IMG/VR virus record: IMGVR_UViG_3300046534_000882 | Location: 1-36,845 of that record | Source of the DNA: a virus | Direction: 5' to 3' (one strand) | DNA length: 36,845 nt | Part shown: positions 5,492 through 9,831 of the stretch, one piece after another | Layout of the letters: each line of letters starts with the position of its first letter | Position numbering within the stretch: the stretch's first letter is position 1 | Program-made: the position numbers and the translations under genes | Notes under the pieces: model-generated | Seen by the model: the letters and a program-made list of their open reading frames with translations, nothing else | The model's database searches: none | What the model was told of the DNA's origin: nothing

Positions 5492-5704
5492 ATGAGCAAG
5501 TTAGACGTAACGCCAGAAGCTAGAGAGAAGCGCATAGCTGAATTAAACGCGCAGCTAGATTCTCAAATTGAAGCAATAGAAGTATCTCGGCAAATTTATA
5601 ACGAGATCAAAGAGAAATATGACCATGCTTCCGATGAGCTGGCGGGGCGCATTCAGTACATGGAAGCTATCAGGCAAGACCTAATTTCTTGGCAGGGTGA
5701 ATAG
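5492..5704 (+). CDS. Hypothetical coiled-coil protein, 70 aa
   Basis: Starts MSKLDVTPEAREKRIAELNA at the ATG at 5492, with CAGGG seven bases upstream; an in-frame extension to 5444 begins inside the terminator T-run and is unlikely. It is highly charged and predicted to be one long helix with heptads (AELNAQLDSQIEAIE), probably a coiled coil. It lies at the lambda cII position but shows no HTH, so it is not an evident CII. Its stop overlaps the GTG of the replication gene by one base. Confidence 0.7.
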   Translation: MSKLDVTPEAREKRIAELNAQLDSQIEAIEVSRQIYNEIKEKYDHASDELAGRIQYMEAIRQDLISWQGE

Positions 5705-6489
5705 TGCATTACTACAAACGAAACCTAGGTGATTACGCTAAGAAGGCAGGGCGATTGTCCATCCTTCAACATGGCGTTTATAACCTCCTGATTGATGCTT
5801 GCTATGACCGCGAGAGCTTCCCCAATTTGGATGAAGCAATTGACTGGGTTTGGGCTTCAACTACAGAAGAACAAGAGGCGGTTAAGTTTGTTTTAAGCAA
5901 GTTTTTCATTGAAGAAGATGGGGTTTTTATCCAGAAAAGAATCCAAGAAGAGTTAGCCGACTATCAAGCCAAATCTGAAAATAACAAACGAATCGCACAG
6001 GAAAGGGAAACGAAGCGTAAACGAACCGTGAACGAAACGTGCGAAAAAGACAACGAACCGTCACCTAACCATAAACCAATAACCAATAACCATAAACCAA
6101 TAACCAATAAACCTCTCAAGACAATCGAGAATAAATTCTCTCAGGAGGATTTTCAGTTTGCTGAATACGTTTATCAAAAAATCTTAGGGCCAGCTCCCAA
6201 GACCAAGAAACCTGATTTCACCAAGTGGGCTGACTCAGTTCGATTGATGCGCGAAGTCGATAACCACACTCCCCAAGAAATCATGCAAGTTTTCACCTTT
6301 GCCAACAGCGACCCATTCTGGCAAACCAATATTTTGTCCATCCCCAAACTCAGGGTGAAATTCCCAGACCTTCATTCGAAAATGTTAGGAGCCCAAAATG
6401 CAAACAGCATCCCAATTGGCAGAACGTATCAAACGAAATCCGAGCGCGCCGACGCAAAACTCGCAGACTACCTCCAGCAACACTCCTGA
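5704..6489 (+). CDS. DUF1376 (YdaU-like) replication initiation protein
   Basis: Encodes 261 residues from a GTG with AGGG upstream. Residues 1 to about 95 (HYYKRNLGDYAKKAGRLSIL, then YNLLIDACYDRE) match the DUF1376 domain of phage replication proteins, a winged-helix-like fold. A basic, Asn-rich linker follows at about residues 95-140 and contains the doubled HKPITNN motif. The C-terminal part (about 150-230) resembles the domain found downstream of DUF1376 in replication initiators. It occupies the lambda O position. Two exact 21-bp repeats inside the linker-coding DNA may be the origin, as iterons lie inside lambda O. Confidence 0.82.
   Translation: MHYYKRNLGDYAKKAGRLSILQHGVYNLLIDACYDRESFPNLDEAIDWVWASTTEEQEAVKFVLSKFFIEEDGVFIQKRIQEELADYQAKSENNKRIAQERETKRKRTVNETCEKDNEPSPNHKPITNNHKPITNKPLKTIENKFSQEDFQFAEYVYQKILGPAPKTKKPDFTKWADSVRLMREVDNHTPQEIMQVFTFANSDPFWQTNILSIPKLRVKFPDLHSKMLGAQNANSIPIGRTYQTKSERADAKLADYLQQHS
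6067..6108 (+). repeat. Tandem 21-bp repeats inside the replication gene (candidate origin)
   Basis: Two adjacent exact copies at 6067-6087 and 6088-6108, each built from AACCATAAACC followed by AATAACCAAT, with shorter CCAAT/ACCAATA echoes inside. The strand is A- and C-rich with no G over more than 40 bases. The location inside the O-position gene is where lambdoid phages keep their origin. Confidence 0.55.
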
Positions 6490-6811
6490 CATTTTCGCAA
6501 AGGTATGGAGGGGCTTGCAGGCTTCTAGGCACATATCCAAAGACGATGGGGTTGGTGAGACAGATTACAAATACTGGAATCACATGCTCAAGGATTTGAC
6601 CAACGAGAAATTACTTGCAGGACTCAAGGCGGTTGATGGATTTCAGGGCTACATGACTATCGGCGTTTTTAAAAAGCTATGTCTTGATGCCTCGGTGAAG
6701 GTTCCAGCTTACCGGCCATTTAATTCAAGCCGTGCACTCACGGTTAAGCCTATCCAAGGTGATGTATTGCAAAGCCGATTGAGAAGCATGAAAGCGGAAC
6801 TAGGGCTATGA
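6398..6811 (+). CDS. Small replication protein overlapping the initiator (P-position)
   Basis: Encodes 137 residues. The ATG at 6398 has a perfect TTAGGAG site six bases upstream, although it lies 92 bases inside the previous gene in another frame. After a Ser/Thr/Asn-rich N-terminus, the segment FAKVWRGLQASR...DYKYWNHMLKDL and MTIGVFKKLC recalls the lambda P/helicase-loader class, but it is much shorter than lambda P (233 aa). It probably recruits or loads the replicative helicase; this rests on position and a faint resemblance. Its stop overlaps the next ATG (ATGA). Confidence 0.7.
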   Translation: MQTASQLAERIKRNPSAPTQNSQTTSSNTPDIFAKVWRGLQASRHISKDDGVGETDYKYWNHMLKDLTNEKLLAGLKAVDGFQGYMTIGVFKKLCLDASVKVPAYRPFNSSRALTVKPIQGDVLQSRLRSMKAELGL

Positions 6812-7092
6812 AAAAAGGGCTAACTCAAGATCAGATTAATGATTACTTGGCAGGGCAAAGCGTGAATGACCTAGCCGAAAACTCAGACCTGAGCCCGAGC
6901 GCGATTAGGGCAAGACTTGAACAGGCTGGCGTTCTTAGATCGAGGACTGACGCAACAAGATTGTCTTTGTTAGGCGGCAAGAAATTACGACCGATTAGCC
7001 GATTCAGCGCCAGTGAGGTTGCCGCTACATACGCCGCTCAGATGTCTCAGCTTTGGTTACAGCGGCCAATAATGGGAACCGTTGATGTTTAA
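6808..7092 (+). CDS. HTH protein, 94 aa
   Basis: Begins MKKGLTQDQINDYLAGQSVN. Residues 14-45 (QSVNDLAENSDLSPSAIRA) form a helix-turn-helix of the resolvase/transposase-like type. A basic region follows. Its ATG overlaps the stop of the upstream replication gene, and its own end overlaps the start of the methyltransferase gene by eight bases. Probably DNA-binding; target unknown. Confidence 0.7.
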   Translation: MKKGLTQDQINDYLAGQSVNDLAENSDLSPSAIRARLEQAGVLRSRTDATRLSLLGGKKLRPISRFSASEVAATYAAQMSQLWLQRPIMGTVDV

Positions 7093-7927
7093 AGTTTTGG
7101 ATCTCTTTTCAGGAATTGGCGGCTTTTCCCTTGGCCTAGAGAGAACAGGCGGATTTGAAACTGTTGCATTCTGCGAGATTGAAAAGTTCCCACAGAAAGT
7201 ATTAAAAAAGCATTGGCCTGAAGTACCAATTTACGAGGATGTGAGAAATGTCACCAGAGAACAGCTTGCAGCAGATGGGATTTTTCCCAATGTCATTACT
7301 GGGGGATTCCCCTGCCAGGATATCTCGGTCGCAGGAAAGCAAAAAGGTATCAGCGAAGGAACTAGGTCGGGATTGTGGTCAGAGTGCGCCCGTTTACTTG
7401 GGGAAATTCGACCCGATTACGCAATCTTTGAAAACGTCACAGCGCTGCTTAGTGGCGACAACGGGCGATGGTTTCAGCGAATTCTCTGGGACATTTCCGA
7501 GGTCGGGGGTTATGAAGTTGAATGGCACTGTATACCAGCTTCCAGCGTTGGCGCTCATCACCAAAGGGATAGAGTGTGGATCGTACTTGCCAACACCAAC
7601 GAGCTCCCCAATGGGCAGCAACACTTCAATGCGGCGGAGCGGCACGACAGCGAAAAAGCGTTACATAATCTGGCCGACCCCAACAGCGAGAGACTACAAG
7701 GGTTGTGGCAAGGAAGGTCGCTACAGGAATGGAGTGAAGCAACTAGACACTGTGGACAGGGTTGTAAATCATCTGGATGGTCTTGGGCAACTGAACCCAG
7801 TATTTGTCGAGTGGCTAATGGGATACCCGATAGGGCACACCGACTTAAAGGGCTAGGGAATGCTGTTGTCCCACAAATACCTGAACTAATCGGCAGAGCA
7901 ATATTAGAGGCCAATAATGGACTATAG
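7085..7927 (+). CDS. DNA cytosine-5 methyltransferase (orphan)
   Basis: Encodes 280 residues. C5-methyltransferase motifs are in order: I (FSGIGG, residues 8-13), IV with catalytic Cys77 in GGFPCQDIS, VI (ENV, 116-118), VIII (QRDRVWIV, 160-167) and X (GNAVVP, 258-263). It transfers a methyl group from S-adenosylmethionine to cytosine in duplex DNA. At 280 residues it is short, and the target-recognition segment (about 170-250) is small. No cognate endonuclease is nearby, so it probably protects phage DNA from host restriction or alters regulation. ATG at 7085 chosen; TTG at 7082 is possible. A 202-codon ORF in another frame lies entirely within it. Confidence 0.93.
   Translation: MFKVLDLFSGIGGFSLGLERTGGFETVAFCEIEKFPQKVLKKHWPEVPIYEDVRNVTREQLAADGIFPNVITGGFPCQDISVAGKQKGISEGTRSGLWSECARLLGEIRPDYAIFENVTALLSGDNGRWFQRILWDISEVGGYEVEWHCIPASSVGAHHQRDRVWIVLANTNELPNGQQHFNAAERHDSEKALHNLADPNSERLQGLWQGRSLQEWSEATRHCGQGCKSSGWSWATEPSICRVANGIPDRAHRLKGLGNAVVPQIPELIGRAILEANNGL
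7248..7856 (+). CDS. Overlapping ORF inside the methyltransferase gene, 202 aa
   Basis: Fully embedded in the methyltransferase gene in another reading frame, ATG at 7248 with GAGG nine bases upstream. The product does not look like random translation. It has SLKTSQRCL, FSGTFPRSGVMKLNGTVYQL, two LPTPT/WPTPT motifs (the second as WPTPTARDYKG), and near the end LNPVFVEWLMGYPIGHT. I recall these motifs, in this order, from phage and metagenome proteins annotated as hypothetical or methyltransferase-associated. They coincide with the part of the methyltransferase that encodes motif VIII and the recognition segment, so conservation in one frame may partly impose conservation in the other. It may be a genuine dual-coded gene or a persistent annotation artefact. 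Function unknown. Confidence 0.4.
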   Translation: MSPENSLQQMGFFPMSLLGDSPARISRSQESKKVSAKELGRDCGQSAPVYLGKFDPITQSLKTSQRCLVATTGDGFSEFSGTFPRSGVMKLNGTVYQLPALALITKGIECGSYLPTPTSSPMGSNTSMRRSGTTAKKRYIIWPTPTARDYKGCGKEGRYRNGVKQLDTVDRVVNHLDGLGQLNPVFVEWLMGYPIGHTDLKG

Positions 7928-8165
7928 CACTTTTTACAAACGCCTGGCATACGGCTACACCGTTGCAGAGGCTTTGCTGATTCCGAAGAGAATGCCGAGG
8001 TGGATGTATGCGGTTGAGCAGGAAGAAGGCTTGTCAATTATCGATGTAGTAAAGCGCGAGCGAGCGGCCGGTGTTAACAACGTCCAGATTGCTCACAGCT
8101 TTGAGGTCAACCCAGCGACTTTGTACTCTTGGATCAGAAAGTGGAGAAGGGCGGGGGTGCTGTGA
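7917..8165 (+). CDS. HTH protein (transposase-type fold), 82 aa
   Basis: Begins MDYSTFYKRLAYGYTVAEAL. The C-terminal part GVNNVQIAHSFEVNPATLYS, then WIRKWRRAG, is a helix-turn-helix like that of IS3 transposase OrfA proteins, but no transposase catalytic gene accompanies it. AGAGG lies six bases before the ATG, which overlaps the methyltransferase end. Probably a phage DNA-binding protein. The stop overlaps the GTG start of the next gene. Confidence 0.75.
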   Translation: MDYSTFYKRLAYGYTVAEALLIPKRMPRWMYAVEQEEGLSIIDVVKRERAAGVNNVQIAHSFEVNPATLYSWIRKWRRAGVL

Positions 8166-8635
8166 AGGACCGATTAACAATCAATTCAGAGCCTAGCAAG
8201 ACTGTCGCCTTTCAGCAATTGGAACAGCTATACGCCGAACACAAGTACGTGACAATCGAATACCGACTGGGCCAAGACCGTAGCTTAGATCAAAACGCGC
8301 TTCTCCATGTATGGGTAGGCGAAATGATCGAGTTTTACACACAGAAAATCCGCAAGTCATACGAAAAAAATGACTGGGAGGATCTCATGTCCGGCACTAA
8401 GCGAATGCTTAAAGCCAATTGTTACAACCAAAACCCAGATTACAGATGGCTAGTACACAAGATCAAAGATGCTCAAACAGGGAAAGAGAGGGTTGATTAC
8501 AGAAGCTCTGCAAATTACCTGCAAGGCGAGATGTTTATGTTTTTAACGTGGCTTCAGATTAAGGCCAGTTTCGATGGCATTGTTTTGGAGTCAAAAGGCG
8601 AGTACGCCAAATTAGCGCGGGAGTCAAACGCATGA
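8162..8635 (+). CDS. NinB-like recombination protein
   Basis: Encodes 157 residues from the GTG at 8162 (an upstream in-frame ATG at 8129 lies inside the HTH gene). The segment YRLGQDRSLDQNALLHVWVG carries the RSLDQN motif of lambda NinB (Orf), a protein that helps load recombination functions on SSB-coated DNA. The length is close to NinB (146 aa). It lies in the equivalent of the lambda nin region, with a NinG-like gene 1.5 kb downstream. The stop overlaps the next ATG. Confidence 0.75.
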   Translation: MKDRLTINSEPSKTVAFQQLEQLYAEHKYVTIEYRLGQDRSLDQNALLHVWVGEMIEFYTQKIRKSYEKNDWEDLMSGTKRMLKANCYNQNPDYRWLVHKIKDAQTGKERVDYRSSANYLQGEMFMFLTWLQIKASFDGIVLESKGEYAKLARESNA

Positions 8636-9831
8636 AGGCCAAATTACCCCATCACGGAATATTAGTTCACGGCTCGCCAACTGATAAGCAGAGGGAAATG
8701 ATAGAGGCTTGGATACTTCACGGCTCGTCTCACAAAGCAGCGAAGGCAACGGGCTTGGATCAGGCAAATATTGGGCGGGCTAAGAATCTAGTTCAAAAGC
8801 GTGCTGAAAAATCTGGCTGGAGTCCCACCTTCTCGGCTGGCGATTATGTCCCCAGCACAGAGGAAGTCATAGGCCGGTCAATTCTTACCAAAGACGATGA
8901 AGGGAATAATGTTTGGCTGAAAACTAAAGCCAAAAAAGAAGAAGAGGCGAACGCATTTCAAGAATTTATCACTGGGCTTTGCGACAAGATTAAGCCAGTG
9001 AGCCGAACCCCTGTACCCAAGCTGAAATTCGACCCTGATTTAATGAGCGCGATCTTTATCGGTGATGCTCATATTGGAATGTATGCCTATGGTCCTGAAA
9101 CTAAGCACTCAGACTTTGACACTGACAAAGCGGCTGCAGGACTCAGGGAGGCCATTGACGATTTGATTGACAGATCACCAAACGCTGAAACCGGCTTGCT
9201 GGTTGATGTAGGTGATTTTATGCACATGAACTCTAGCCTAAACACAACGCTCAAAGGTACTCGTTTGGATGTTGATACACGCTACTCAAGAGTATTGCGC
9301 GCTTCGGGTCAGGTGATGAACTACGCAGTCGGGCGAATGCTTAAAAAGTTTATCAAAGTGATAGTTGTTATCTCAAAAGGCAACCACAACGAAGATCCGG
9401 CGGTCGCTGTTCAAGAGATTTGCGCGGCGTATTACCACAAAGAGCCTCGGGTGACTGTCTTGGATACAGATGGTTATTTCCACTACATCGAGTGGGGCAA
9501 GTGGCTAATTGGCGTTAATCACGGCGATAAGATCAAGCCCGAGAAATTGGTCAATGTTATGTCACGCGATATGGCTCAAGCATGGGGCCGATCAACTCAC
9601 AGAATGTGGGCAACGGGCCATTTCCATCATAAGCAAGTCTTGGAACTTGATGGCTGCACCGTTTACAAGTTTGGCGCATTACCACCACCTGATGCCTGGC
9701 ACGCGGGCGCTGGATTTGGCGGCGATGGAAAGATGGAAATGATCACATTTAAGAAGCAGGGCGGCACTCATTCAAGTTTGATATTTGACGTGCCACGTCC
9801 AGTTGTCGAGCCAGATTTAAAAATAATCTAA
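8632..9831 (+). CDS. HTH-metallophosphoesterase fusion
   Basis: Encodes 399 residues. The N-terminal ~60 residues hold a helix-turn-helix-like segment (HGSSHKAAKATGLDQANIGR). The rest is a calcineurin-type metallophosphoesterase with all metal motifs: GDAHIG (144-149), VGDFMHMN (193-200), GNHNE (250-254, a variant of GNHD/E), NHGD (296-299) and GHFHH (329-333). Such enzymes cleave phosphate mono- or diesters, including nucleic acids and cyclic nucleotides. Phage members of this kind sit in replication/nin regions and their substrate is unknown. The DNA-binding end suggests DNA as the substrate (inference). Confidence 0.85.
   Translation: MKAKLPHHGILVHGSPTDKQREMIEAWILHGSSHKAAKATGLDQANIGRAKNLVQKRAEKSGWSPTFSAGDYVPSTEEVIGRSILTKDDEGNNVWLKTKAKKEEEANAFQEFITGLCDKIKPVSRTPVPKLKFDPDLMSAIFIGDAHIGMYAYGPETKHSDFDTDKAAAGLREAIDDLIDRSPNAETGLLVDVGDFMHMNSSLNTTLKGTRLDVDTRYSRVLRASGQVMNYAVGRMLKKFIKVIVVISKGNHNEDPAVAVQEICAAYYHKEPRVTVLDTDGYFHYIEWGKWLIGVNHGDKIKPEKLVNVMSRDMAQAWGRSTHRMWATGHFHHKQVLELDGCTVYKFGALPPPDAWHAGAGFGGDGKMEMITFKKQGGTHSSLIFDVPRPVVEPDLKII

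Follow-up and report, generated by a model that had tools for sequence, protein, structure and literature searches.

The overlapping genes and their distribution

The window, which is the whole stretch of 36,845 nucleotides analysed here (IMG/VR virus record IMGVR_UViG_3300046534_000882), carries at positions 5704-9831 a phage replication and recombination cluster with genes for a DUF1376/replication initiation protein, HTH proteins, a NinB-like protein and a DNA repair exonuclease. The cytosine-5 DNA methyltransferase gene in this region is termed alpha. An earlier note, made from the letters of the DNA, had claimed that a 202-codon ORF with a plausible ribosome site and an ordered set of motifs lies in another frame of the methyltransferase gene. 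This ORF, termed beta or EMB, is present as described: it lies wholly within the methyltransferase ORF in the +1 frame, it starts with an ATG that a GAGG precedes by 9 nt (Table 1), and the motifs KTSQR, FSGTFPRSG..NGT.YQLP, two PTPT and LNPVFVEWLMG.P.GHT were all found in its product. An antisense ORF of 159 codons (window 7558-8037, minus strand) overlaps the same methyltransferase gene and may be a by-product of constrained composition.

Table 1. Features of the alpha/beta locus in window coordinates
Feature	Position	Strand	Remark
alpha, cytosine-5 DNA methyltransferase (probable large subunit), 280 aa, ATG 7085	7085..7927	+	motifs I-VIII and X, without IX
beta (EMB), embedded +1-frame protein, 202 aa, pI 9.5	7248..7856	+	ATG start; PHROG 1008 match
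GAGG, Shine-Dalgarno-like, 9 nt 5' of the beta ATG	7235..7238	+	sequence
TGA stop in the +1 frame, two codons 5' of the beta ATG	7242..7244	+	sequence
alpha motif IV PCQ, catalytic Cys77; +1 reading falls within GDSPARIS of beta	7310..7318	+	
conserved block of beta, residues 47-107 (FDP..KTSQ..FSGTFPRSG..NGT.YQLP), over alpha motifs VI-VIII	7386..7568	+	four-fold synonymous mismatch 0.12-0.135
first PTPT motif of beta	7590..7601	+	sequence
second PTPT motif of beta	7674..7685	+	sequence
motif-IX-like block of beta (LNPVFVEWLMGYPIGHTDL)	7791..7847	+	four-fold mismatch 0.094; near-absolute alpha codon fixation; profile match
alpha motif X (LKGLGNAVVPQ), at the end of beta; beta stop TAG inside the LGN codons	7844..7876	+	

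Alpha matched the Pfam family DNA_methylase with 3.4e-49 over residues 2-201. The matches to Pfam and TIGR00675 both ended at residue 201, and the motifs of an ordinary single-chain m5C methyltransferase were not all found in this one frame. The protein-database search proposed in the earlier note had a mixed outcome for beta, which matched PHROG 1008 with 5.6e-27, whereas Pfam, NCBIfam, PADLOC and PDB gave zero matches. PHROG 1008 matched all 116 EMB proteins scanned. This family is annotated as DNA methyltransferase and, like beta, it is the +1-frame family; its name reflects the host gene, and the protein itself has no catalytic motif.

The earlier note had ascribed the motifs of beta to stand-alone phage and metagenome proteins. 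Among the homologues found there was no stand-alone copy; nearly all overlapped a methyltransferase at the same +1 offset, and the reading as a stand-alone protein was dropped for this reason. The records in question are most likely +1-frame gene calls of methyltransferase genes belonging to PHROG 1008. When prokaryotic genomes were searched with the EMB profile, all 80 retrieved loci had a methyltransferase in the overlapping frame, and so had 126 of 127 further loci, the remaining one being without a scored EMB. The record labels among the 80 loci included Pseudomonadota, Actinomycetota, Bacillota, Planctomycetota, Bacteroidota, Cyanobacteria, Spirochaetes, Chloroflexi, one archaeon and others; many of these loci come from metagenome bins, and individual host labels may be wrong. 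Phages and prophages from over 15 bacterial and archaeal phyla have the double-coded pair, and about 6% of 299 sampled Pseudomonadota species genomes held a match. The Roseovarius chromosome OX638333 has at least five near-identical alpha/beta loci (L239, L240, L241, L243 and L244), which suggests a multiplied prophage or mobile element.

Both frames are annotated in the Paenibacillus phage Likha (L249). In the Escherichia phage K1ind2, the annotated ORF28 (Mte8-like protein) is nested in the +1 frame of the C-specific methylase ORF29; it is a divergent homologue of beta, nested like beta, and its record proposes no function. The RefSeq entries examined had only alpha annotated, and in the literature on the overlap itself or on Mte8 nothing past the naming was found. 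Gene callers keep one frame, and genome databases usually show one of the two genes. Phage cytosine methyltransferases that appear as solitary genes in the databases probably lack a part and, if cloned from the annotation alone, may have no activity.

Coding signals and selection in the +1 frame

Openness of the second frame was analysed in a first set of 80 viral loci that were retrieved using the methyltransferase protein alone. The longest open stretch in the +1 frame had a median of 221 codons, compared to 55 in the +2 frame. Frequent stop codons in this frame of homologous genes, which the earlier note had named as the sign against dual coding, were not observed: 79 of the 80 loci carried a beta homologue at the same +1 offset. 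In L057 (2539-2582) and L059 (1802-1845), TAA stops break both frames at the same spot, pointing to decayed genes or sequencing errors.

The synonymous codons were then shuffled within each gene in 200 permutations, keeping the enzyme and its codon usage. In the window the +1 frame is open over 203 codons, longer than in all 200 permutations (mean 92). For 141 homologous loci, the mean open length of the +1 frame was 235 codons as observed and 103 after permutation, and at 116 of these loci no more than 1 of 200 permutations was as long as the observed frame. The similarity of the +1 product to the beta of the window, scored against the window's own protein only and with no trained profile, was above every permutation in 139 of the 141 loci. 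For a negative control, ordinary m5C methyltransferases of proteobacterial genomes were used, of which 14 of 30 loci were scored and the 16 without a plus-strand methyltransferase hit were left out. In these 14 the +1 frame was no more open than in their own permutations. They scored at most 19 bits with the EMB profile and 60 EMB-bearing genes at least 154 bits, a descriptive comparison with a profile trained on EMB-bearing loci. The EMB-bearing genes had a median of 238 bits, whereas after permutation the null median was 96 bits. Conservation of the enzyme motifs dragging the second frame along, which had been offered as the alternative, explains only this part of the similarity and had zero effect in the ordinary methyltransferases; it was dropped on the permutation and canonical-methyltransferase controls.

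Synonymous variation was compared in pairs of homologues with 85-95% identical enzymes. The four-fold sites differed at 0.077 inside the overlap and at 0.251 outside. Inside the overlap, the third codon positions (0.065) varied no more than the first positions (0.075), which is to be expected if the third base of alpha also serves as the second base of another coding frame. Since the pairs share ancestry, 62 disjoint, independent pairs were also tested, and four-fold variation was lower inside the overlap in 55 of them (sign test p=2e-10), the inside value being about half of that outside. The reduced main-frame variation that the earlier note expected of a dual-coded gene was thus seen. Along the window, the four-fold mismatch was 0.41-0.47 outside the overlap, 0.12-0.135 over the beta residues 47-107 and 0.094 over the residues 187-202, i.e. 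the synonymous constraint is centred on two blocks of beta. The codons of the alpha stretch R-V-A-x-G-I/V-P were nearly fixed as xGA GTG GCT NAT GGG NTN CCC at about 118-133 of 134 loci, with GGG at 133 of 134; the loci span 33-73% GC. Read in the +1 frame, these codons give the EWLMG(F/Y/L)P of beta.

Taken together, stop avoidance, codon permutation, the canonical-methyltransferase controls and the suppressed synonymous variation support the long dual coding over the catalytic core that had been suspected. We conclude from these sequence comparisons that beta is a real overlapping gene and not a passenger. Long overlaps on the same strand that have been kept over great evolutionary distances are rare and a matter of debate; the present one is statistically very strong.

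Proposed division of the methyltransferase motifs between the two chains

In alpha, the motifs I, IV, VI, VIII and X are present, and the PCQ, ENV and RxR residues were invariant in 100 homologues. Motif X was found in 195 of 212 alphas. The canonical motif IX was detected by pattern search in none of the 212 homologues; in the ordinary control methyltransferases it is in frame and visible in the C-termini. AlphaFold2 predicted the large domain of alpha with confidence (residues 1-170 and about 250-280), and this model superimposed on M.HhaI over 171 columns at 1.5 A. The residues 178-245, where the small domain is expected, were predicted mostly disordered.

The C-terminus of beta reads LNPxFVEWLMGxPxG. 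In the mycobacteriophage Lunsford and its relatives the core ORF stops after motif VIII, and a single chain encoded by a +1 ORF carries PTPT repeats, an IX-like LNAAFSEWMMG and, after it, motif X (IGNGVVVQQ). A profile of this actinophage IX-X chain matched beta with 2.7e-9, and it aligned in register with the canonical LTPRECxRLxGFP...GNSV (P=0.0016). When beta was compared directly with the canonical motif IX, its best alignment was at this place and weak (P=0.016). In the loci L393 and L387, the core and the IX-like element are in one frame, which an indel or an assembly error may explain. Because of the match of the actinophage-chain profile, the alignments to canonical motif IX and the single-frame loci, we read the C-terminus of beta as most likely a diverged motif IX.

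The number of xTP motifs (PTPT modules) varied from 0 to 7 per beta homologue. At L008:754-2022 and L074:1496-2710, the betas have at least 4 PTPT modules and alpha is longer in parallel, indicating that a gain of modules keeps both frames open. The methyltransferase gene of L393 apparently contains, at 1864-2806 in the +1 frame, an inserted sequence (YAAGLLDGEGCV...) that resembles a LAGLIDADG homing endonuclease. In the Streptococcus phage P0092 (L255:1598-2017), a +1 ORF is annotated within a methyltransferase of the single-chain kind with its own motif IX. The tail of this ORF resembles sequence found in the main frame of the Staphylococcus phage IME-SA4 (L254), which suggests that the target-recognition region once underwent a frame shift.

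The sequences themselves show the overlap, the selection on both frames, the lack of motif IX in alpha and an IX-like element in beta. We consider it likely, with a probability of about 0.8, that the overlapping genes alpha and beta encode an m5C methyltransferase made of two polypeptides, of the same type as M.EcoHK31I. Alpha, read in frame 0, would form the large domain, with S-adenosylmethionine binding, the catalytic residues Cys, Glu and Arg and motif X, and would have neither a motif IX nor a foldable small domain of its own. Beta would be translated in frame +1 from its own ATG inside alpha and would supply motif IX and probably the DNA-contacting parts around the variable PTPT modules. 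The two chains are expected to assemble into the working enzyme, whose activity would depend on beta, and the enzyme would methylate the phage DNA, most likely as a protection from host restriction. The overlap has an unusually clear reason in that both frames appear to build one enzyme. More tentatively, and with less than even odds, the first half of beta, i.e. about 107 residues over the alpha motifs IV-VIII, may be a new domain that arose by overprinting on the catalytic core of the same enzyme that it completes, and the PTPT modules may set the target sequence. If this is true, the same phage DNA would carry the catalytic function in one reading frame and the target specificity in the other, in more than 15 phyla.

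Beta could instead be a real overlapping gene with an independent job, e.g. as a regulator, a chaperone or an anti-restriction protein, and not the motif-IX subunit. The strongest constraint includes the residues 47-107, which resemble nothing known, and in the AlphaFold2 model of beta alone no fold of a methyltransferase small domain was found. This model had a pLDDT of 60.7, fairly confident parts were only the C-terminal helix at residues 184-191 and a short stretch around residue 55, and a fold search with it gave no match, so that it does not account for the N-terminal block of beta; such a poor fold would fit a chain that needs a partner and proves nothing. We regard an independent job as unlikely, since beta was never found without a methyltransferase among the homologues, its C-terminus runs on into motif X in the actinophages and shares the frame of the core in L393 and L387, and alpha has neither motif IX nor a folded small domain.

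Programmed ribosomal frameshifting from alpha as the main route of expression of the +1 region, giving a core-plus-IX fusion beside plain alpha, is improbable to a still greater degree. It would agree with the annotated second ORF of the actinophages, which overlaps the core ORF briefly and carries IX-X, and with the existence of single-frame variants. At the start of beta the evidence is different. An in-frame +1 stop lies a median of 5 codons 5' of the beta ATG, and 66% of 191 loci have a Shine-Dalgarno sequence of at least 4 nt before their first +1 ATG, compared to 19% of 670 ATGs of the +2 frame. In addition, constraint is also seen on the N-terminal part of beta, which would not be made if the shift took place downstream of it. 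The Shine-Dalgarno enrichment favours an independent initiation of beta, although part of it may come from the conserved P-E-V stretch of alpha. Finally, an untranslated passenger, kept open and similar by the conservation of the enzyme, can practically be dismissed: the permuted genes do keep some similarity, but the observed scores and open lengths exceed their permutations as given above, the +1 frame is not open in canonical methyltransferases, and in the overlap synonymous sites are suppressed and synonymous codons fixed.

Comparison with M.AquI and M.EcoHK31I

In M.EcoHK31I (Lee, Kam and Shaw 1995), the small-subunit gene is reportedly nested within the large-subunit gene in a different frame. 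The large polypeptide of this enzyme (YGGCCR) contains the motifs I-VIII and X and the predicted TRD, whereas the small polypeptide contains motif IX; M.AquI (CYCGRG) is an m5C methyltransferase split within the variable region (PMC3404938). Like the proposed alpha/beta enzyme, M.AquI is one m5C enzyme made of two polypeptides. The split in the actinophage relatives (Lunsford gp79/gp78) falls at a similar point, with the core first and then the variable region, IX and X. In the window, however, the large chain keeps motif X, and the small gene lies nested across the part that codes for the catalytic core.

With M.EcoHK31I the locus shares the motifs I-VIII and X in the large chain, most likely motif IX in the smaller one, and the reported overlap of the two genes in different frames. 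For beta, the motif IX of the small chain is matched through homology only (2.7e-9, then P=0.0016; directly P=0.016). M.EcoHK31I is part of a restriction-modification system, whereas the window locus, and those relatives for which the neighbouring genes were inspected, belong to phages, prophages or plasmids, and no restriction gene was seen adjoining them. A DNA-similarity search of E. coli genomes with related loci, made to find M.EcoHK31I, gave only prophage relatives among the regions inspected. The kind of two-polypeptide methyltransferase is already known; the breadth and the under-annotation of the overlapping pair appear to be new. Every defining feature of the M.EcoHK31I type that was examined was found at the window locus, which probably works like M.EcoHK31I and is an enzyme of this type.
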